IMG/VR virus record: IMGVR_UViG_3300041411_000053
Span: 1-64,000 of that record
Length of the DNA: 64,000 nucleotides
Source: a virus
Strand: one strand, 5' to 3'
Of the stretch, positions 18,176 to 41,780 are shown piece by piece; position 1 is the stretch's first letter, and the number at the start of each line of letters is the position of its first letter. The position numbers and the translations under genes were made by a program. Under the pieces are notes generated by a model. The model made no database searches. It was given only the letters and a program-made list of their open reading frames with translations, and was not told where the DNA came from.

Positions 18176-18391
18176 ATGAGCAAGGTTCAACTTAAATTTA
18201 AAGAAGGTGTAACTGTTCGCATCATTGACGATACCACATTTCATGGTTTCGAGATTGGTAGCACTGTAACTATTGATAGTATTAAAGATTGGGGTAATGG
18301 ATATTACAGTTATGTTGCTATCGATGAAGATGGTGATGATATGGTGTTTGATGATGACGACTGTGAAGCAATCCAAGGAGTTCTACAATGA
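18176..18391 (+). CDS. Small acidic SH3-like protein
   Basis: 71 residues, beta-rich ('GVTVRIIDDTTFHGFEIGS') with a strongly acidic C-terminus (DEDGDDMVFDDDD). Unknown function. AGGAG precedes the ATG and the stop overlaps the PRPP synthetase start as ATGA. Confidence 0.65.
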   Translation: MSKVQLKFKEGVTVRIIDDTTFHGFEIGSTVTIDSIKDWGNGYYSYVAIDEDGDDMVFDDDDCEAIQGVLQ

Positions 18392-19227
18392 TTAAGTACA
18401 GCGTGAACCATACCCAGACTACTGTTCGTCAATGGAAGTTTCCTGACGGTTGTGTTGGGGTTGATATCCAAGTGGGTAGTCAGGCAAAAGACTTTACAAA
18501 CGATCTGGTTAAAATCACTTGTATCTTTGGTAGTGAGGGGTTTACAATCAATGATGACATCATTGCACTTGCGATGGTTGTTGATGCTGTAAAACGTCAA
18601 TACCCTGTTGCTAAGTTGGAACTTGAACTACCTTACATTCCATATAGTCGCCAAGATCGTGCTGTGAACGCTGGTGAGCCTAACAGCTTGAAAGTAATAG
18701 GAAAGATGATCAACGCTATGGGTTTCTCATCAGTGTTCGTCCTTGACGCCCACAGTATCGTCGCTGATGCTTGTATTGATAACATGGTTGAGGTTACTCA
18801 ATTAGATATCTTCCGTAATATCTATCCGAGTTTTCGTCAAGTTTACGTTGTTGCTCCAGATGCTGGTGCAAGTAAGAAGTGTGAAACGTTTGCGAAAGCT
18901 GTTGGTGCTGCTGGTGTTATCACCTGTGCGAAAGAACGCGATCCACATACTGGTAAAATTGTAGGTCTTAAACTACTTGACAGCGTTCCAGAAGGTGCTA
19001 ACATCTTGGTACTCGACGACCTGTGTGACGGTGGTCGTACATTCATCGAAGTCTCACAGCTTCTTGAGGCAACGGGTAACGTTTCGAATCTTGATTTGGC
19101 AGTTACACACGGATTGTTCTCGAAAGGTGTAGATGTTGTTGCAAAGAACTATGACACAATCTATACTACAGACAGCATCATAAGTGACAAGAATAACGGT
19201 ATTGTCCGTATCATTTCGGTATACTAA
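18388..19227 (+). CDS. prs: Ribose-phosphate pyrophosphokinase
   Basis: 279 residues, slightly short for the family. 'ELELPYIPYSRQDR' (ATP/ribose-5-P region), 'VFVLDAHS', 'VVAPDAGASKKCE' and the PRPP-binding loop 'LVLDDLCDGGRTF' are all present. It makes PRPP from ribose 5-phosphate and ATP. PRPP is the co-substrate of the nicotinamide phosphoribosyltransferase two genes downstream, so the pair feeds NAD salvage. Confidence 0.93.
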   Translation: MIKYSVNHTQTTVRQWKFPDGCVGVDIQVGSQAKDFTNDLVKITCIFGSEGFTINDDIIALAMVVDAVKRQYPVAKLELELPYIPYSRQDRAVNAGEPNSLKVIGKMINAMGFSSVFVLDAHSIVADACIDNMVEVTQLDIFRNIYPSFRQVYVVAPDAGASKKCETFAKAVGAAGVITCAKERDPHTGKIVGLKLLDSVPEGANILVLDDLCDGGRTFIEVSQLLEATGNVSNLDLAVTHGLFSKGVDVVAKNYDTIYTTDSIISDKNNGIVRIISVY

Positions 19228-19236
19228 GGATTACAA

Positions 19237-19560
19237 ATGAAGGTTAGATGTGTTCAAATCACCACACCGCGTTCTGATTTACGTCGTGGTCCACCGGGTG
19301 GTATTACTGTTGGAAAAGTTTACAAGGTAGCTGAAGTAATTGAACCGGCTCATACTTATGCTTTGGTGAATGATGAACCATTTGATCGACCTGCGATGTA
19401 CTCGATCATTAATGATAACTTCAAGATTGCCCGTTACAGTCAGGATCGTTTTGAAGTTATCTGTGACAAACCAGTTCAAGATTTGAGGACAGCGTTCAAT
19501 TGGTTAACAACTGAATTGCGTTCACACATTAAATATCTAGAAAGTAGGGACGTATTTTAA
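19237..19560 (+). CDS. Unknown protein with KOW/SH3-like start
   Basis: 107 residues. 'TVGKVYKVAEVIEP' resembles the 'VGKMYDAWGL' segment of the small protein at 63075, suggesting a shared beta-barrel. The C-terminus is helical. It lies between prs and the HNH gene. Not recognised. Confidence 0.65.
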   Translation: MKVRCVQITTPRSDLRRGPPGGITVGKVYKVAEVIEPAHTYALVNDEPFDRPAMYSIINDNFKIARYSQDRFEVICDKPVQDLRTAFNWLTTELRSHIKYLESRDVF

Positions 19561-19572
19561 GGAGAAAGAAAC

Positions 19573-20085
19573 ATGAGGGATGAAGAACTCCTCGCAATTT
19601 GTCAGGAGTTTTATTCTCTTGGTGAGGATGGTATTTATTTAAAGAAATGGAGACGAGGTTTTCCAAGAAGTGCCGTAGGGAATCGTGTAGGTAACACGCA
19701 CCATTCTGGTTACAAGTATGTAAAGATAAACAACAAGCTTTATGGTGAGCATCGATTGGTTTGGTTAATGATACATGGTGTATTTCCAGATGGCGAGCTT
19801 GACCACGAAGATGGCGACTGTTGTAATAACACAATTTCAAATCTTCGCCTTGCAACACGGGGTAGAAATTGTGCAAACAGAAATGGATGGTCTGAATCAG
19901 GTTATAAAGGTGTTTACCCAACAAAAAGAGGTAAACCTTGGCAGGCTCAAATAACTGTTGATAAGAAGTCAATACTTCTCGGTAGATACGACAACAAAGA
20001 AGATGCAGCAAGAGCTTACGATATAGCAGCACTTAAATACAAAGGCGAGTTCGCCAAAATTAATTTCACAGGAGAAACAGTATGA
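19573..20085 (+). CDS. HNH homing endonuclease with AP2 domain
   Basis: 170 residues. HNH core 'GEHRLVWLMIHGVFPDGELDHEDGDCCNNTISNLR' at about 56-90, then 'GYKGVYPTKRGKPWQAQI...LGRYDNKEDAARAYDIAALKYKG', a typical AP2 DNA-binding domain. It follows a ribosome site (AAGGAG) and its stop overlaps the nadV start as ATGA, so it is inserted without breaking coupling. It probably spreads by homing into phages lacking it. Confidence 0.92.
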   Translation: MRDEELLAICQEFYSLGEDGIYLKKWRRGFPRSAVGNRVGNTHHSGYKYVKINNKLYGEHRLVWLMIHGVFPDGELDHEDGDCCNNTISNLRLATRGRNCANRNGWSESGYKGVYPTKRGKPWQAQITVDKKSILLGRYDNKEDAARAYDIAALKYKGEFAKINFTGETV

Positions 20086-21887
20086 ATCTTTTCGCAGCAT
20101 TCCTCTCGGATGGGTATAAGGCTGGTCATATGGACATGTACGCAGACAATACTGAGGTTGTGTCTTCTAACCTTACACCACGTTCTGACAGTATTTATCG
20201 TCGTTCGTGCACCAAGTATTACGATGGTAAGTTGGTTGTACTCGGCCACCAAGGTGCTGTGATGGAAGTCGTTGAGATGTGGGATGACTTCTTCAAAATG
20301 GACAAAGGCATTGCACTCGGTCGTTTCAAGCTTTTGTGCGACAGTTATTTTGGGTATGATTTGATTCAAGTTGATCGTCTTTCGAAGTTGCACGATCTTG
20401 GTTATCTTCCGCTGGAAATCCGTACTCTGGATGAAGGTAGTAAGGTAAACATGGGTGTTCCGGTCCTGACCATCCGTAACACTATTGCACATGCGTTTTG
20501 GTTGGTTAACTTCCTTGAAACTGTGATCAGCAACCTTACTTGGAAACCAAGTACTGCGGCAACTATTGCAGCTGAATACCGTGCAATGTTGACCGACTAT
20601 GCAATTCGTACAGGTACTGCTCTTGAAGTAGTTAATATTCAAGCACACAGCTTTGCTGACCGTGGTATGTCTGGTCCTGAAGATGCTGCACGCTCTGGTT
20701 TCGGTCACGTTGGTAGTTTCTTGGGTAGTGATTCGCTTGGTACTGTGTTGTACGCACAACAGTATTACAAGGCTGGTAACTTTGTAGCATGTTCTGTACC
20801 TGCAACTGAGCACGCTGTAAGCACAAGTAACATTCTGCGAATTGAAGAAGAACTTGATGAAAACGTATACGCTTTTGTCAACAACGAGCAATACGACATC
20901 TACAGTAAAATGGTTGGGAATGATGAAGATCCTCGACTGATCGCTGAAATCATGTTCCTGTACGAACTGATGCTGAAGTTTCCAGTTGGTATTCTTTCGT
21001 ATGTTGCTGACAGCTTCGACTTCTACGGTCTGATTTCTCGTGGTCTACCATATCTGAAAGAAGTTATCCTTCGTCGCCAGTCAAATGGTGTAACGCCCGG
21101 ACGACTAGTTATTCGTCCAGACTCTGGTGATCCTGTAGAAGTGTTGTGTGGTGTTAAGATTTATAACATCCCTCACACTTTTGCTGAGCTTGATGAGCAA
21201 ACAGATGAAGCTTCCGATTCTATATGTGACATTGGTTACAACGTAGTTGAAGACCTTGATGGTGGAGATGAAGCCAGTTTCATTGGTCGTACATCTGATG
21301 GTGTTATCGTTTCCATCGACGGTTATGTGCACAAGGAGCGTTACTACGACAGTAAACATTTTACAGGTTGGTACGCTCGTGAAGTTGAGTTAACTGTTGA
21401 ACAGAAAGGTGCTGTAGAAGTATTGATGGACATCTTCGGATACACTGAGACTTCCACTGGTCACTTCTTGATGGACGACCACATTGGTTTGATCTACGGC
21501 GACTCTATTACTACCAATCGTTGCCAAACAATCCTTGAGCGCCTGTTTGACAAGGGTTACGCTTCTGGTAATGCAATGTTCGGTGTTGGCTCTTACACTT
21601 ACCAGTGTGTGACACGTGATTCTCTAGGCTTTGCCGTTAAGGCAACTTACACTGAAGTTAATGGTAAGGCGATTCCGATCTTCAAAGATCCTAAGACGGA
21701 TAGCAAGAAGAAGAGTGCTAAAGGTCTGTTGCACGTTGGTCTGGTTGATGATGAATATGTCTTGACCGATAATGTCACTCGTGAGGTTGAACAGAGTGAA
21801 TCCAATATGCTGAAGATTCGATTCTTGGATGGTAGTTTCTACAATCAAACATCCCTTGATGAGATTCGTGCAAAACTGATGGTGTAA
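20082..21887 (+). CDS. nadV: Nicotinamide phosphoribosyltransferase (NAMPT)
   Basis: 601 residues. 'FLSDGYKAGHMDMY' near the start, 'VNIQAHSFADRGMSGPEDAARSGFGH' (about 186-211), 'ISRGLPYLKE' and the catalytic 'IRPDSGDP' (about 345-352) define NAMPT. It joins nicotinamide and PRPP to make NMN. The protein is about 100 residues longer than usual: an acidic insertion of about residues 358-445 follows the RPDSGDP motif. A terminator follows the gene. Confidence 0.95.
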   Translation: MNLFAAFLSDGYKAGHMDMYADNTEVVSSNLTPRSDSIYRRSCTKYYDGKLVVLGHQGAVMEVVEMWDDFFKMDKGIALGRFKLLCDSYFGYDLIQVDRLSKLHDLGYLPLEIRTLDEGSKVNMGVPVLTIRNTIAHAFWLVNFLETVISNLTWKPSTAATIAAEYRAMLTDYAIRTGTALEVVNIQAHSFADRGMSGPEDAARSGFGHVGSFLGSDSLGTVLYAQQYYKAGNFVACSVPATEHAVSTSNILRIEEELDENVYAFVNNEQYDIYSKMVGNDEDPRLIAEIMFLYELMLKFPVGILSYVADSFDFYGLISRGLPYLKEVILRRQSNGVTPGRLVIRPDSGDPVEVLCGVKIYNIPHTFAELDEQTDEASDSICDIGYNVVEDLDGGDEASFIGRTSDGVIVSIDGYVHKERYYDSKHFTGWYAREVELTVEQKGAVEVLMDIFGYTETSTGHFLMDDHIGLIYGDSITTNRCQTILERLFDKGYASGNAMFGVGSYTYQCVTRDSLGFAVKATYTEVNGKAIPIFKDPKTDSKKKSAKGLLHVGLVDDEYVLTDNVTREVEQSESNMLKIRFLDGSFYNQTSLDEIRAKLMV

Positions 21888-31725: not shown

Positions 31726-31922
31726 TGACCGGGTGTCCAGAATGCTACAATAATGGAATCAAGTTCTGGCGTGATCAACCCATGAATGAAGAGATTCGAA
31801 AGATACTCACATTCCAACGACACGCCAGTGTCTACTATTACACTCTGGATGATGCAATGGCAATCTGGGGAACACAAATTGAGGATGATTCAAATGGTGT
31901 TCTGGAAACGAAAGAAGATTGA
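31725..31922 (+). CDS. Unknown small protein
   Basis: 65 residues, TAATG overlap. Starts MTGCPECYNNGIKFWRDQ (CxxC) and has an acidic end. Not recognised. Confidence 0.55.
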   Translation: MTGCPECYNNGIKFWRDQPMNEEIRKILTFQRHASVYYYTLDDAMAIWGTQIEDDSNGVLETKED

Positions 31923-32358
31923 TCTTGGTGATCAGTCTGTTACCGAACTTACTATCCTAGAATGGAAGCGATTCTTCAGCATCAAGCTGTTCAATTTCCA
32001 TCCTACTGATGGTAAACAAGATCGATTCCATACTCATGCCTTCAATGCCGTGAGTATTCTGCTATCTGGTGACTACATTGAAGAAGTAATCAAGTATGGT
32101 ACTTCTGTATGTCAGTTGAAACGCAGTCGTCAACGTCTCTTGTACATTCCAGCGAATGAGTACCATCGTATTACCAAGAGTGAAGGGTGTCGTACATTGT
32201 TGATTACAGGTCCATGGGGTAATCAGTTTCGTGAACTTCGACCTTTGTGTAATTCCAACAGTCACACTAATTATTCTTGGTGGTCCGAACACATCTGTGG
32301 TCCACAGAGAAAAGATATCGAGCAACTTCCAAACAGCAAATTATTAATAGGTGCATAA
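31894..32358 (+). CDS. Cupin-like protein
   Basis: 154 residues from an ATG with GAGGAT upstream; a longer in-frame reading overlaps the whole previous gene. 'FHTHAFNAVSILLSGDYIEEV' and 'LLYIPANEYHRITKSEGCRTLLITGPW' resemble the two cupin motifs with metal-binding His residues. Activity unknown. Confidence 0.65.
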   Translation: MVFWKRKKIDLGDQSVTELTILEWKRFFSIKLFNFHPTDGKQDRFHTHAFNAVSILLSGDYIEEVIKYGTSVCQLKRSRQRLLYIPANEYHRITKSEGCRTLLITGPWGNQFRELRPLCNSNSHTNYSWWSEHICGPQRKDIEQLPNSKLLIGA

Positions 32359-36827: not shown

Positions 36828-36852
36828 CCCGCCATTGAGCGGGTTTTATTTT
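36826..36852 (+). terminator. Terminator ending the rightward operon
   Basis: CCCGC-CATTGA-GCGGG followed by TTTTATTTT, overlapping the end of 36126-36827. Confidence 0.9.
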
Positions 36853-37854
36853 ACCCAAAATTCCATTCCCCTGTATTTTCAATTACCCTATTTTACACTT
36901 CTCCGAATACACTTCCTTCCAGAATCCGTATACCTTGGAATCCCTGATATTGCGTAAATGGGTTTAACGCCCCGGACTTCAGGCACCTACCGCCCGTCTA
37001 AACATTCTCAAAATCCCTACGACTTGGCATGATCTATGCTTGTTGATCCATCCTCATATGATGATTGACATATCACTCAGTCTATGCACATGGTATGTAA
37101 ATGATTCTCATTCAATCGTGTTTAACATAATACTGATTACACGCAATGCACTATGTCCTCCCTTGGTATGCACCGGAAAGGCTGGGTCTATCGATTGGCT
37201 TGGATTAGGTGACTGACTCTATATGTCTGCGTTGCACAGACTCATCACCCATGTCATACAGCATACGCCCATTCGGGCAAGAAGGCAAACTATTTCACTA
37301 CCTTTCGTCAGAATGACCTGAATGTGAATGGATATCATTATCTTTTATGAATAAAAGAATTGGAATATGTTCCACGTGAAACGTGTAAATGTATTTCGAG
37401 AGAGTGAGGCTTAACCAATTGACCAACCCATTGTCCCAATGTTCAGCTTATCCCCGAATAGCCTTATCTGTGAATAGGTTATATTTATGTCGTTATACGA
37501 CATGATCTGTTATATACATGGCTTGTAAGCCATGAGCTATAAGGCTTTAGGAGAAGTGGTATATGATGGGCTATGCCCATGGTAGGGAATGTTTATTGCG
37601 TTGCAATGAGGGGTATTGTAGGAGGTTACAGAGGGCATGCTACCGCATACAAGGGAAGAGAACAGGGGTGACTACCCTGTTTCTATATCTGATGTGTACG
37701 CCTGTTATGTGAAACATAACAATAGGTTATATAGAGTATTACTTCTATGTTGTATACAACATAATATTATATTCTTTAAGAGGGGAGGTTTTCCCCTCCC
37801 TTTCCTCTACTAGCTTCGGTTGCTCGCTGTGGTTACTACCACAGAATCTAGAGC
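36853..37854. other. Gene-free 1-kb zone with array of short hairpins
   Basis: No ORF of convincing size or ribosome site on either strand. It holds many perfect short hairpins: CTTTTAT-GA-ATAAAAG (about 37342), ATGTCGT-TAT-ACGACAT (37487-37503), CATGGCTTGTAAGCCATG (37517-37534), ATGGGC-TAT-GCCCAT (37566-37580), ATTGC-GTT-GCAAT (37595-37607), AACAGGG/CCCTGTT (37661-37681), TGTTATGT-GAA-ACATAACA (37703-37721), TATGTTGTATACAACATA (37746-37763), a GGGAGG/CCTCCC hairpin (37783-37800) and CTGTGGT-TACT-ACCACAG (37827-37844). Transcription converges here from both sides. Candidate structured RNA or origin. Confidence 0.6.
37368..37383 (+). other. parS-like site 1
   Basis: TGTTCCACGTGAAACG matches the bacterial chromosomal parS consensus TGTTNCACGTGAAACA at all but the last base. 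Confidence 0.6.
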
Positions 37855-37884
37855 ATTGTACTACTAACAATCGGTTTGTGTCAA
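37855..37884 (-). promoter_or_regulatory. Leftward promoter into the gene-free hairpin zone
   Basis: TTGACA (37879-37884), 18 bp, TACAAT (37855-37860) on the minus strand. The -35 overlaps the stop codon of 37881-38141, as in the rest of the family, but no gene follows it. Confidence 0.6.
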
Positions 37885-38141
37885 TACCCTTGACTATCAT
37901 TCTCATCTACAAACTGAGAAACGAATGCGTCAACCTTTTGCTTCAATTCCTTGTGTTCACTTTCTACCAATGTCAATCGGTCTTGATAATAGGTCAGTGC
38001 TTCTACAAAAGCAACTTCTGCTGTCTTGGCACGCATTGCTAGATTCATGCCACGGGTTTCATCATATAACCAGAAGCCATCGGTCATTTCGGTTAATGCC
38101 AGTTTGCTGCTGAGTACAGTATGTTTAATTACAGTTGCCAT
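37881..38141 (-). CDS. Unknown early protein
   Basis: 86 residues, alpha/beta start (MATVIKHTVLSSKLALTEMT) and a long charged C-terminal helix. Not recognised. parS-like site 2 lies just upstream of its start. Confidence 0.65.
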   Translation of the reverse strand: MATVIKHTVLSSKLALTEMTDGFWLYDETRGMNLAMRAKTAEVAFVEALTYYQDRLTLVESEHKELKQKVDAFVSQFVDENDSQGY

Positions 38142-38155
38142 CTTAGTTAGTCCTT

Positions 38156-38171
38156 TGTTTCACGTGGAACA
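38156..38171 (-). other. parS-like site 2 (exact consensus)
   Basis: TGTTTCACGTGGAACA on plus; its complement TGTTCCACGTGAAACA is an exact match to TGTTNCACGTGAAACA. Lies between two early genes. Confidence 0.7.
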
Positions 38172-38194
38172 TTTTAGTATTTGAGTTTAGGTTA

Positions 38195-38470
38195 TCACTC
38201 AGGATTACGGAACCCATCAGGGTTTTCACGTTCCAGTTCTTCAAGTGTTTTAATCACTGGTTTTGGAACGTCAAAGGTTACACTAGTACCACCACAACGC
38301 CAGTGGGTACAAGACACCTCAAACCCTTCCTTTGCAGGGAACCGTTCTATGATAATATTAACCAACATTCTAGCTGTGTTTTCATCAACAGCTGACCGGG
38401 TATCGGTAGCAAACAAGTGACGACCTTTATGACTTACGTTGATTTCGTAATGCGATTGAATACCAGCCAT
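38195..38470 (-). CDS. Unknown early protein
   Basis: 91 residues starting MAGIQSHYEINVSHKGRHLF, a beta/alpha pattern that could be a small dsRBD-like or swapped-hairpin fold; 'CTHWRCGG' has a Cys pair. Not recognised. Confidence 0.65.
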   Translation of the reverse strand: MAGIQSHYEINVSHKGRHLFATDTRSAVDENTARMLVNIIIERFPAKEGFEVSCTHWRCGGTSVTFDVPKPVIKTLEELERENPDGFRNPE

Positions 38471-38507
38471 GATAATTTCCTCTCTTTATGATGTGTACAA
38501 GCTGTTT

Positions 38508-38777
38508 TTAAGCTTGACGCCATACTGTCAGCATTTGGTTAGAATTGTATTTCTTGGTTTTGTTGGCACCATTCTTGCGATTAACAACCTTGAGGGTGCA
38601 TTGATCCACTTGGCGAACGGTGCCGCTATCACCCACTTGCAATGTGACGGATTCGGTTTTAAGGCTAACAACCTCATACTCGAAAGTGCCTTTGAGGTTA
38701 CCATTAGATTCGACCACGCGAAAAACATCACCTTTCTGCATGTCTTTGACTTGAATCTCAGATTTGATGAAAGCCAT
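38508..38777 (-). CDS. Unknown early protein, SH3/KOW-like
   Basis: 89 residues, beta-rich: 'QVKDMQKGDVFRVVESNGN', 'VTLQVGDSGTVRQV'. Basic C-terminus (KNGANKTKKYN). Expressed from the promoter at 38816-38843. Confidence 0.65.
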   Translation of the reverse strand: MAFIKSEIQVKDMQKGDVFRVVESNGNLKGTFEYEVVSLKTESVTLQVGDSGTVRQVDQCTLKVVNRKNGANKTKKYNSNQMLTVWRQA

Positions 38778-38815
38778 GGTCGTATCCTCAGGGTTGATTT
38801 CGTTTCGTTACAGTC

Positions 38816-38843
38816 ATTGTACACGGTTTAGAGAAGGGTGCAA
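38816..38843 (-). promoter_or_regulatory. Early promoter, family a
   Basis: TTGCAC, 16 bp with CTTCTCTAAA, TACAAT. Preceded by the A-rich AAATAAAAGC typical of the family. Confidence 0.7.
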
Positions 38844-38858
38844 GCTTTTATTTAACGA

Positions 38859-39050
38859 TTATTCTTCATTCACCCAATTGACAGCCGTATCAATCGCATC
38901 CTGTTTGTCATTGGTGAAATAGTCAGCATCTGAATCAAGGTCTTCACCGTTGACAGAAAACCGCACTTCATATTCATCAAACTCAACATTCCGATAAACA
39001 TTAGCCACTTTGCTGTTATTTGCGAACGTTTGAATCTTGCGCTTAGCCAT
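38859..39050 (-). CDS. Unknown early protein
   Basis: 63 residues, basic start (MAKRKIQTFANNSKVANVYR) then acidic. Single gene behind 39100-39129. Not recognised. Confidence 0.6.
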   Translation of the reverse strand: MAKRKIQTFANNSKVANVYRNVEFDEYEVRFSVNGEDLDSDADYFTNDKQDAIDTAVNWVNEE

Positions 39051-39099
39051 TTTAGAAAACCTCTATCTAATGGGGTAGGTCTTTTGACCGTGTGAGAGC

Positions 39100-39129
39100 A
39101 TTCTACCTTAGAGAATGCTCTCTGTACAA
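39100..39129 (-). promoter_or_regulatory. Early promoter overlapping an 11-bp inverted repeat
   Basis: TTGTAC, 18 bp with TTCTCTAAGG, TAGAAT. The -10 is embedded in GAGAGCATTCT-N7-AGAATGCTCTC (39095-39123), a likely operator. Confidence 0.6.
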
Positions 39130-39137
39130 GCTTTTAT

Positions 39138-39368
39138 TTAACGATTTATCACCATCCAGAAGGCGCGGTTTGTATCTGCACCGGCTTGCATTTCACGAAC
39201 CAGCAACACAGGTTCCATACCGTTAACATAGCAGTCCAGCATCAATTGCAGGTGAAAGGCGTTCAAGGTGCAATCATAACCAAACTCATCTGCCTCGGAT
39301 ATGACCTTGGTAACAGCCGCTGCAATCAATTCGTGGTTCTGGTTAACTGGAGTATTTTGAGTGTTCAT
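39138..39368 (-). CDS. Unknown early protein
   Basis: 76 residues from the ATG at 39368 (AAGG upstream); a longer in-frame reading begins upstream of the promoter at 39403. Starts MNTQNTPVNQNHELIAAAVT, helical. Not recognised. Confidence 0.6.
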   Translation of the reverse strand: MNTQNTPVNQNHELIAAAVTKVISEADEFGYDCTLNAFHLQLMLDCYVNGMEPVLLVREMQAGADTNRAFWMVINR

Positions 39369-39402
39369 TTTAGAGAACCTTATGTTGTATGGGTGTGAAG
39401 CC

Positions 39403-39431
39403 ATTATATCGACTTCACAACCCCAGTGCAA
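39403..39431 (-). promoter_or_regulatory. Early promoter
   Basis: TTGCAC, 17 bp, TATAAT. The -10 is flanked by GTGAAG/CTTCAC inverted arms. Lacks the TTCTCTAAA spacer motif. Confidence 0.65.
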
Positions 39432-39434
39432 CAA

Positions 39435-39791
39435 CTATTTTTCAGCTTTCAAGTCGGCAATGAGCTTTTGCAGGTTGGCAATATCCCATTCAACATGGTC
39501 TGCTACCAGCACAGCCCATCCCACTTGATTATTGCCATTTACAACACTTTGAGCCTTGATGCGTGCAACTCGCTGGCTGTCCCACTTGGAAGCGTTTTCC
39601 ACTTTGACCCAAGGCCATTTAGGATTGGGTGCATCAAAGTTAACAGGCATTGGGTGCTCATTACCACACACGACAATCCATTTGCTGATTTCACCACTTG
39701 TCAAGATGTATTGATTCAACTCTTCAACACGTTGTTCAAACTTGGCAATGGTGTCAGTTTTCAACAATGCTACAGCATTTTTGTCGTTCAT
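39435..39791 (-). CDS. Unknown early protein
   Basis: 118 residues, helical N-terminus (MNDKNAVALLKTDTIAKFEQ), 'NPKWPWVKVENASKWDSQRVARI' in the middle and a helical end. Not recognised. Confidence 0.65.
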   Translation of the reverse strand: MNDKNAVALLKTDTIAKFEQRVEELNQYILTSGEISKWIVVCGNEHPMPVNFDAPNPKWPWVKVENASKWDSQRVARIKAQSVVNGNNQVGWAVLVADHVEWDIANLQKLIADLKAEK

Positions 39792-39843
39792 GGTGTTCTA
39801 CCTTTGGTTGGCTGGGAAGCTGTCTTGCTTCCCTATGTGTTCA

Positions 39844-39871
39844 ATTCTATACCTTTTAGAGAAGGCGTCAA
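39844..39871 (-). promoter_or_regulatory. Early promoter
   Basis: TTGACG, 16 bp with CTTCTCTAAAA, TAGAAT. Confidence 0.75.
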
Positions 39872-39874
39872 CAA

Positions 39875-40267
39875 CTATTTTAACTGTTTTACATAAATCT
39901 TTGAGCAACCAACGTTTTCAATGTACTGGATAGAACCATGCTCATAACAGACGCCAATGTTAGTAATCAGCTCTGAATATTCACCAACGCTATAAACGTA
40001 AAAGTCAATGAACGCTTTGCCCTCTGGTGTCAGTTCCACACCCTTGCAAGTCTCTGCCCAATCTTGGGTTTGGTGCAGGTCTGAATTACACAAAGCATCA
40101 TCGTCGTCAACCAGCCAGCAATTGTTAGAGATTGGTTTGCTGCTGTCAATCAATGACACACGCTCACCAGCTTCAAGCTTCACACGTCCCACACAAGTGG
40201 CTTTCAATGCAGCCTTACGTATCAGAGCCTTTTCTTCACTGGTGAATTTCCAAACTTTGTTAACCAT
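39875..40267 (-). CDS. Unknown early protein
   Basis: 130 residues, basic helical start (MVNKVWKFTSEEKALIRKAA) followed by beta segments. Not recognised. Promoter 40306-40333 lies upstream. Confidence 0.65.
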   Translation of the reverse strand: MVNKVWKFTSEEKALIRKAALKATCVGRVKLEAGERVSLIDSSKPISNNCWLVDDDDALCNSDLHQTQDWAETCKGVELTPEGKAFIDFYVYSVGEYSELITNIGVCYEHGSIQYIENVGCSKIYVKQLK

Positions 40268-40305
40268 GATCTTTGTCCTTTTGGTGTGTTTGTTTCACTG
40301 ATTTC

Positions 40306-40333
40306 ATTCTAGGCGGTTTAGAAAACTATGCAA
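40306..40333 (-). promoter_or_regulatory. Early promoter
   Basis: TTGCAT, 16 bp with TTTTCTAAA, TAGAAT. The -35 and A-tract overlap the stop region of 40337-40519. Confidence 0.7.
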
Positions 40334-40336
40334 GCT

Positions 40337-40519
40337 TTATTTTAAAGGTAAGTTGTGAAATTTCTTGTGGACTGTAACCATCCGTTTTGCACCTTTCTCA
40401 GTAGGTGTATTGCCCAAACATACATTTGTGCCGTCTTCCATATATGCAACCACTCGCCAAACCTTGTTCAATTCGTCAAATTTGGAAATGATTGATGTTA
40501 CTTTATTGAGTGAAGGCAT
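40337..40519 (-). CDS. 60-residue early protein
   Basis: ATG at 40519 with GGAGCAAC upstream; a longer in-frame reading would include promoter sequence. Starts MPSLNKVTSIISKFDELNKV, ends basic. Not recognised. Confidence 0.6.
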   Translation of the reverse strand: MPSLNKVTSIISKFDELNKVWRVVAYMEDGTNVCLGNTPTEKGAKRMVTVHKKFHNLPLK

Positions 40520-40553
40520 TTTGTGTTGCTCCGCTGTTCGTTTCGTTAAATTC

Positions 40554-40581
40554 AGTCTACACCGGTTAGAGAACCATGCAA
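40554..40581 (-). promoter_or_regulatory. Early promoter
   Basis: TTGCAT, 16 bp with GTTCTCTAA, TAGACT; 35 bp before the 60-residue gene. Confidence 0.65.
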
Positions 40582-40694
40582 GTTTTATTTTCAATCTTTT
40601 AGAAAAGAATTCACAGGCTCTGTAAGCTCCTATAAAGCGATTTGAGCAACGATATAGCATACCCTTGATGCTGATATGTCTTTCGGATTAAAAC

Positions 40695-40794
40695 GTCGTA
40701 CCAATAAGCGTGCCAACTTTGAACACAGTTTCATATGCTATTTGCGTGCCAACTAGGAATAACAGGCTCATCCCGTGTTTGTCTCGTGCCAAAC
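40695..40794 (+). repeat. Spaced direct repeats (GCG)TGCCAA
   Basis: GCGTGCCAACT at 40708-40718 and 40744-40754, CGTGCCAAAC at 40785-40794 and a weaker CGTACCAA at 40697. Spacing is about 36-40 bp in a stretch without a convincing gene (40582-40811). Confidence 0.5.
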
Positions 40795-40811
40795 CTAACA
40801 CCATGAACATA

Positions 40812-40840
40812 ATTCTACAGGCGAGACAAAGCCCCGTCAA
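40812..40840 (-). promoter_or_regulatory. Early promoter overlapping a terminator
   Basis: TTGACG (40835-40840), 17 bp, TAGAAT (40812-40817). The -35 lies in the downstream arm of the hairpin at 40828-40861. No recognised gene follows before 40519, only the direct repeats. Confidence 0.55.
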
Positions 40841-40861
40841 CCATTTAGATTGCGGGGCTTT
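40828..40861 (-). terminator. Terminator after 40864 gene
   Basis: Perfect 9-bp stem AAAGCCCCG/CGGGGCTTT with a 16-base loop, followed on the minus strand by GTCTCG; the T run is inside the arm. Confidence 0.55.
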
Positions 40862-40863
40862 GT

Positions 40864-41037
40864 TCATTCGCTTACAAGCTTTGACAGGTTCTTTATGAAT
40901 TGCTCTTTTGTTCGCCCTTTCACCTCAACACCATACGCTGAATAGTAAAGCTTTGCAGCTTTGAGCGTCATACGGTTTGTGTCTAGGTTTGTGATAATTG
41001 ATTGCATCAAGTCGCGTGCAAGTACCCAATGTTTCAT
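40864..41037 (-). CDS. 57-residue early protein
   Basis: ATG in ATGA overlap with the previous gene and AAAGGGG upstream. Starts MKHWVLARDLMQSIITNLDT, basic C-terminus (KGRTKEQFIKNLSK). Not recognised. Confidence 0.6.
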   Translation of the reverse strand: MKHWVLARDLMQSIITNLDTNRMTLKAAKLYYSAYGVEVKGRTKEQFIKNLSKLVSE

Positions 41038-41351
41038 ACAAACCCCTTTGCTTTGCATTCTAGATGCCAATCAATAAGATCCTTTACATGGGATTCACTT
41101 CTGAACACCACACCTTTACAACATTGATCACCGTACAGATTGAAGGCGTAGAATTTACCGCACACGTCCTTAGCAATCTCTATCCGCTTGTACACTGCGA
41201 CGGTGGTGATTATCTCCCCACCTTGAGAATATGCCCACTCTTTAGCCTGTTGTTCGGTTTCAAACTGGGCTATAAGCTCACCAGTAACCAAACCACTACG
41301 CATACGCAATGCATAATGATCAACGTATTTTTCAACAGACATTAATAACAT
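41034..41351 (-). CDS. Unknown early protein
   Basis: 105 residues from the ATG at 41351 (AAAGG at 8 bp). 'IAQFETEQQAKEWAYSQGG' and a C-terminal 'CCKGVVFRSESHVKDLIDW'. Not recognised. Confidence 0.6.
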   Translation of the reverse strand: MLLMSVEKYVDHYALRMRSGLVTGELIAQFETEQQAKEWAYSQGGEIITTVAVYKRIEIAKDVCGKFYAFNLYGDQCCKGVVFRSESHVKDLIDWHLECKAKGFV

Positions 41352-41373
41352 TAAAAACACCTTTGTTGTTTGA

Positions 41374-41469
41374 TTACAGACCAGTGATTAAAGAAGTAAC
41401 CAGAGCAGCAACCAGTGTGGTGATTATCATCCAGAAGATAATTTCACATACCAAGTCAGTGACGTTCAT
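41374..41469 (-). CDS. 31-residue single-pass membrane peptide
   Basis: ATG with GGAGCAAGACGAA upstream. Starts MNVTDLVCEIIFWMIITTLV; residues 6-30 are almost wholly hydrophobic. Driven by 41504-41531. Not recognised. Confidence 0.5.
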   Translation of the reverse strand: MNVTDLVCEIIFWMIITTLVAALVTSLITGL

Positions 41470-41503
41470 TTCGTCTTGCTCCGTTGTTTGTCTGTATGGT
41501 GTA

Positions 41504-41531
41504 ATTCTAGCAGGTTTAGAGAACCGGTCAA
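41504..41531 (-). promoter_or_regulatory. Early promoter
   Basis: TTGACC, 16 bp with GTTCTCTAAA, TAGAAT; preceded by AAATAAAGC. Confidence 0.8.
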
Positions 41532-41570
41532 GCTTTATTTTCAACCTTTTGAAAAGAAAATCACAGGTAT

Positions 41571-41596
41571 TAAAAACCCCAGCATAAGCTGGGGCT
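41571..41596 (-). terminator. Terminator after 41619 gene
   Basis: CCCCAGC-TTAT-GCTGGGG followed by TTTTTAAT on the minus strand. Confidence 0.85.
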
Positions 41597-41600
41597 CTAT

Positions 41601-41616
41601 TGTTTCACGTGGAACT
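41601..41616 (-). other. parS-like site 3
   Basis: TGTTTCACGTGGAACT on plus; its complement differs from TGTTNCACGTGAAACA only at the first base. Lies between a terminator and the end of the 53-residue gene. Confidence 0.6.
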
Positions 41617-41618
41617 CT

Positions 41619-41780
41619 TTACAGCCACCATTTCAGTCGGTCAAGGTTCACAATGCTACCATCCTGCATTAGTGCCGCTCTGGACTGTTTAGGGCATTGT
41701 GGGTTGACTGTATAACCAAGGATAGACGCTACGATCTTACCGCACTTGAACGGCTTCCCGCTTCGTTTCATGACCAACAT
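41619..41780 (-). CDS. 53-residue basic early protein
   Basis: ATG preceded by AAGGAAATAAT. Starts MLVMKRSGKPFKCGKIVASI, two Cys. Ends before its own terminator. Not recognised. Confidence 0.55.
   Translation of the reverse strand: MLVMKRSGKPFKCGKIVASILGYTVNPQCPKQSRAALMQDGSIVNLDRLKWWL

Follow-up and report, generated by a model that had tools for sequence, protein, structure and literature searches.

In the 64,000-nucleotide stretch of phage DNA analysed here (the window), three parS-like sites sit among minus-strand small genes of unknown function and in a non-coding region of about 0.9 kb. Site A, TGTTCCACGTGAAACG (37368-37383), is found in the non-coding region itself (36849-37779), which is conserved, separates convergent gene blocks and contains several small inverted repeats, among them ATGTCGTTATACGACAT and GTTATGTGAAACATAAC. 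The same region also holds AATGATTCTCATT-type repeats that resemble Fur boxes. The second site, TGTTTCACGTGGAACA (38156-38171), is intergenic and lies just upstream of the ribosome binding site of the gene at 37881-38141, which is the last minus-strand gene, is located downstream of the site and is of unknown function (phrog_19040). Site C, TGTTTCACGTGGAACT (41601-41616), directly follows the stop codon of the minus-strand gene at 41619-41780 and precedes its terminator, a GC-rich hairpin followed by TTTTT on the minus strand (41577-41594) that is conserved beside this site. A sigma70-like promoter, TTGACC-N16-TAGAAT (41504-41531, minus strand), is one of a recurring minus-strand set in the region. 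The order along the minus strand at site C is gene end, stop codon, parS, terminator hairpin, promoter-like box and next gene. No strand is assigned to the three sites or to the non-coding region.

The earlier note on this DNA placed the sites in or beside the early region. That designation remains an inference drawn from the small minus-strand genes of unknown function and from the TTGAC-N16-TAGAAT promoter-like boxes that recur at some of them, and promoter-like matches overall do not exceed those in shuffled sequences.

The parS-like motif and the phage that carries it

The window belongs to a phage genome of 104,907 bp (G000), and the 127-bp repeat at the ends of its record suggests a closed assembly. 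The three 16-mers noted previously at 37368, 38156 and 41601 are present as claimed and there are no others in the full record; the complete genome has exactly three copies of GTTYCACGTGRAAC, and 100 shuffles gave none. None of the three sites is a perfect palindrome. The site at 38156 had been called an exact consensus, and it does combine the half-sites GTTTCAC and GTTCCAC, a combination natural to ParB targets, but it falls one base short of a palindrome. It had also been stated that such a 16-mer is not expected by chance. This holds for the degenerate motif TGTTYCACGTGRAAC, for which 0.00 matches are expected, but not for a fixed 16-mer when up to three mismatches are tolerated; counting mismatches is weak evidence on its own because that search yields about one chance match per 64 kb. 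In a scan that presupposed no motif, the only 14-bp near-palindrome with at least three copies in the genome was the parS-like motif, and the same de novo scan recovered it again from SYP and phiPMW, two relatives of the phage. Any near-palindrome family of this kind was seen in only 4 of 100 block-shuffled sequences. The half-sites are at most mildly more frequent than expected, with the full sites counted in, and give no clear signal of enrichment. A chance origin of the sites is ruled out by the shuffles, the unbiased palindrome scan and the matched control patterns.

The phage is related to the Pseudomonas phages SYP (P. plecoglossicida), phiPMW (P. putida) and bp6g (P. tolaasii). Pseudomonas as the host is inferred from these relatives, and the family is apparently lytic. 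The genome encodes its own DNA polymerase, primase-helicase, ligase, ribonucleotide reductase, thymidylate synthase and NAD-salvage genes. It was noted earlier that no parA or parB gene is seen in the window, and a domain search extends this absence to the whole genome: neither ParB_N (PF02195) nor ParA had a match, here or in the close relatives. The ParB domain PF08775 also had no match in this genome or theirs, a weak test given that controls were detected in only 3 of 14 cases. A private ParABS system was rejected as far as ParB_N, ParA and ParB domains are concerned. A search for tyrosine integrases only (PF00589) likewise had no match in this genome or those of the close relatives.

Conservation and turnover among relatives

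Relatives of the phage carry between one and five distinct sites, those of phiPMW being a one-base variant. SYP has six sites, five of them distinct and one duplicated in its terminal repeat; G012 has three, G013, G014 and G015 have two each, and bp6g has one in a record of 26 kb. The reversed pattern, used as a control, had no match in the relatives. Two more distant relatives, one of them a 68-kb fragment, have no sites. In G000, SYP, bp6g and G012 to G015, which are just 9-17% non-coding, 15 of the 18 counted sites fall outside predicted genes. For over half of the sites, a stop codon is found no more than about 5 bases away. The deposited ends of the SYP genome appear to fall in the region that corresponds to 36849-37779, and one SYP site is inside the 351-bp terminal repeat.

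The location of the sites is less constant than their sequence. When the homologous non-coding regions are aligned, position A holds a site in G000 and G013 and none in G012, G015, G014 and bp6g; these four have one at position B instead. The two positions are about 700 alignment columns apart, B adjoins a terminator, and only one of the two is filled at a time. The site at 38156 is some 130-140 bp from the projected place of the position-B site of the relatives. A third position (C) is common to G000, G012, G013 and G015. Local alignments that include the site have 50-79% identity, the flanks of the A and B sites are far more divergent than the sites themselves, and within a shared position only the Y/R letters vary. 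Turnover of position together with variation restricted to Y/R letters is what would be expected, judging from these alignments, if the motif and not its place is selected.

The three sites of phiPMW (NC_041880) share one substitution in the core, TGTTCCACATGGAACA, which gives CACATG. CACGTG does not occur in the 103 kb of this phage, although 20 copies would be expected from base composition and 5.5 from a Markov model. Avoidance of CACGTG may have forced the change in core, which is an inference. The affinity of ParB is influenced by the core (PMC4368675), and the phiPMW sites may therefore be weaker ones. In P. fluorescens phage Y1-MI, a canonical site and a PMW-type site are 300 bp apart.

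Homology among the 41.5-kb position of the window, G012, G013 and G015 breaks at the parS sites, with the genes exchanged on one side and the terminator and promoter common on the other. These breaks hint at cassette exchange at the sites.

Host ParB and parS sites in other viruses

The ParB ChIP-seq peaks of P. aeruginosa are centred on GTTCCAC or GTTTCAC (PMC10419367), and its high-affinity sites parS1-4 read TGTTCCACGTGGAAC[A/C] (PMC4368675). The phage sites are built from the same half-sites as parS1-4 (PMC4368675, PMC10419367), but they are located on a viral genome, away from parAB and oriC. Twelve Pseudomonas genomes (4-6.7 Mb) have only 2-4 full sites each, and therefore a single phage genome carries about as many as the host's own set. 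No site was found within 10 kb on either side of ParB in 80 Pseudomonas loci because the 2-4 sites per genome lie further out.

A precedent for a phage with host parS sites is phi29, in which the same search found four perfect GTTTCACGTGGAAC sites and one with a single mismatch. According to PMC9437464, which cites Meijer et al. (2005), host Spo0J reportedly traps the phi29 genome in the spore. Like the phage studied here, which is apparently lytic, phi29 is a lytic phage with several sites, perfect ones in its case, and the protein reported to read them is a host ParB. The two differ in that the inferred Pseudomonas host is non-sporulating, the present genome is five times larger and its sites are almost all intergenic and within one region. 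Spore trapping cannot be the purpose here because the host does not sporulate. In the open-licence literature, phi29 was the only phage for which a use of parS was found to be reported, and nothing of the kind was found for Pseudomonas phages.

The phage-plasmids P1 and N15 carry their own ParABS. They share with this phage a centromere-like site on phage DNA; however, this phage has no ParA, ParB or integrase domain detected and its site is the host's own, not a private one. No sites were found in phiKZ, SPO1, PAK_P1, PB1, T4, KIL1, Milchi, KVP40 or phiCbK. Several of these (phiKZ, PAK_P1, PB1, KIL1 and Milchi) are Pseudomonas phages, and phages in general therefore do not need the sites.

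In IMG/VR the perfect parS palindrome was found in at least 120 stretches compared with 5 for a matched palindrome (at least 24-fold), and the asymmetric form in at least 120 compared with 41 for a half-swapped control. Two or more sites were present in 37 of about 350 parS loci and in none of 46 control loci among the matches listed. ParB_N was absent from 38 of the 39 multi-site viral contigs among the matches listed, many of them fragments, and a hidden ParB, found in just one, was rejected as a general explanation with that reservation.

Two further viral records, G001 and G007, have no near-match in GenBank. G001 (116.7 kb, 64% GC) has 24 parS-like sites that start just upstream of parA (PF13614, phrog_164; L407:10681-11493), an integrase-like domain and no ParB_N domain that could be found, as if it brings ParA and borrows host ParB. 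Its sites share a single orientation and mostly follow stop codons. An RNA hairpin was rejected as the function of the motif, as the transcribed strand of G001 reads GUUCCACGUGAAAC and the would-be stem contains a C-A mismatch. G007 (169 kb, 35% GC; L414-L422) has 12 parS-like sites, every one of them close to one or the other end of its record. They lie in leaders with a further common element, a GTTGCGG / GAGGATGGATGA-type sequence; the record has integrase-like domains, and no ParA or ParB was found. Relative to genes, the sites of G001 and those of G007 are oriented differently.

Possible uses of the sites

The identity of the motif, its enrichment, its conservation, the turnover of its positions and the lack of detectable phage partition genes are established by the analysis. 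From these we judge, with good confidence and without binding data, that all three are true parS sequences, maintained by selection for the loading of host chromosomal ParB. The family keeps two to five copies of parS, the sequence that serves its hosts as a chromosome centromere, with no detectable partition gene, and therefore host ParB probably loads onto incoming viral DNA. The earlier suggestion of possible host ParB loading at these sites is strengthened by the half-site agreement, the conservation with turnover, the absence of detectable phage ParA and ParB and the phi29 precedent; binding has not been demonstrated and can only be called likely.

ParB binding, its spreading and any benefit to the phage are inferred. 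Once phage DNA enters the cell, Pseudomonas ParB would bind its sites, load there in the form of sliding clamps and coat the non-coding, terminal region and the adjacent block of small genes. A partition complex formed in this way on phage DNA might then be positioned or retained by host ParA-ParB, so that the genome would not be lost or misplaced during slow development or cell division. Such partition-like positioning or retention is the likeliest of the functions considered and is offered only tentatively, by analogy with phi29 and with an inferred benefit. It is favoured because of the phi29 precedent, the few clustered sites and their terminal location. The choice between positioning or retention, gene timing and ParB titration is not decided by the sequence.

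Bound ParB could instead spread and repress phage promoters in the vicinity, so that early genes would be delayed or tuned to the cell-cycle state of the host. P. aeruginosa ParB does repress promoters adjoining parS3 and parS4 (PMC5521831), and site C adjoins promoter-like and terminator sequences, but most species show only limited transcriptional silencing around chromosomal parS (PMC5521831), the phage sites mostly follow stop codons and their positions turn over. We regard this use as unlikely. It is somewhat less probable again that replicated phage copies act as a decoy, titrating host ParB and disturbing chromosome segregation or the nucleoid to the benefit of the phage. One genome already equals the chromosome in number of sites and replication would greatly exceed it, but a decoy would favour many sites, not just 2-5 distinct ones clustered in one region with half-sites at most mildly above expectation even when full sites are included. 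The gain is also unclear, because P. aeruginosa survives the loss of ParB (PMC5521831). Titration is less likely than partition-like use or repression of nearby promoters, which is plausible.

Readings without host ParB were given still less weight. An unrecognised DNA-binding protein of the phage might use the palindrome as an operator beside early genes. Sequence alone does not rule out a phage regulator that shares the specificity of ParB. Compatible with one are the location of the sites, which lie within or next to the presumed early block and close to terminators and starts, the single orientation of the 24 G001 sites, mostly after stop codons, and the shifted core of phiPMW. Such a regulator would, however, need the same Y/R wobble as host ParB, whose specificity the sites fit exactly. 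The motif also recurs in phi29 and in phages whose base compositions differ widely, its orientation relative to genes is not the same in G001 and G007, most sites are at transcript ends rather than promoters, and no ParB/Noc-like domain was found; we consider an operator improbable. That the motif is a neutral leftover or linker marking cassette boundaries, with no ParB-related role, agrees with the breaks in homology described above, but it is found at only three of many cassette boundaries, its variation is confined to letters that ParB permits and it is over-represented in viruses generally. Very little speaks for this last possibility.

Carriage of host parS without ParB may be a widespread viral strategy, used by many unrelated phage lineages to exploit chromosome segregation in non-sporulating bacteria, a possibility we take seriously and do not yet favour. 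Phi29 would then be merely the first example, and others would have 24 sites (a temperate-looking phage), 12 (a 169-kb phage) or 2-5 (the Pseudomonas family). The phi29 case is explained by sporulation; the conserved host centromere of apparently lytic phages of non-sporulating Pseudomonas and the strong excess of parS in viral contigs suggest a more general use of the ParB-CTP clamp. Positioning, retention or regulation of phage genomes by host ParABS becomes directly testable, and the phage sites provide a natural substrate for ParB, traceable from injection onward.

Many palindromic hexamers are missing from the genomes of this phage, SYP and phiPMW, a sequence pattern suggesting strong restriction avoidance. 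At 18388-21887 and 31786-32358 the window has a NAD-salvage pair, ribose-phosphate pyrophosphokinase and nicotinamide phosphoribosyltransferase, and a cysteine dioxygenase-like gene.
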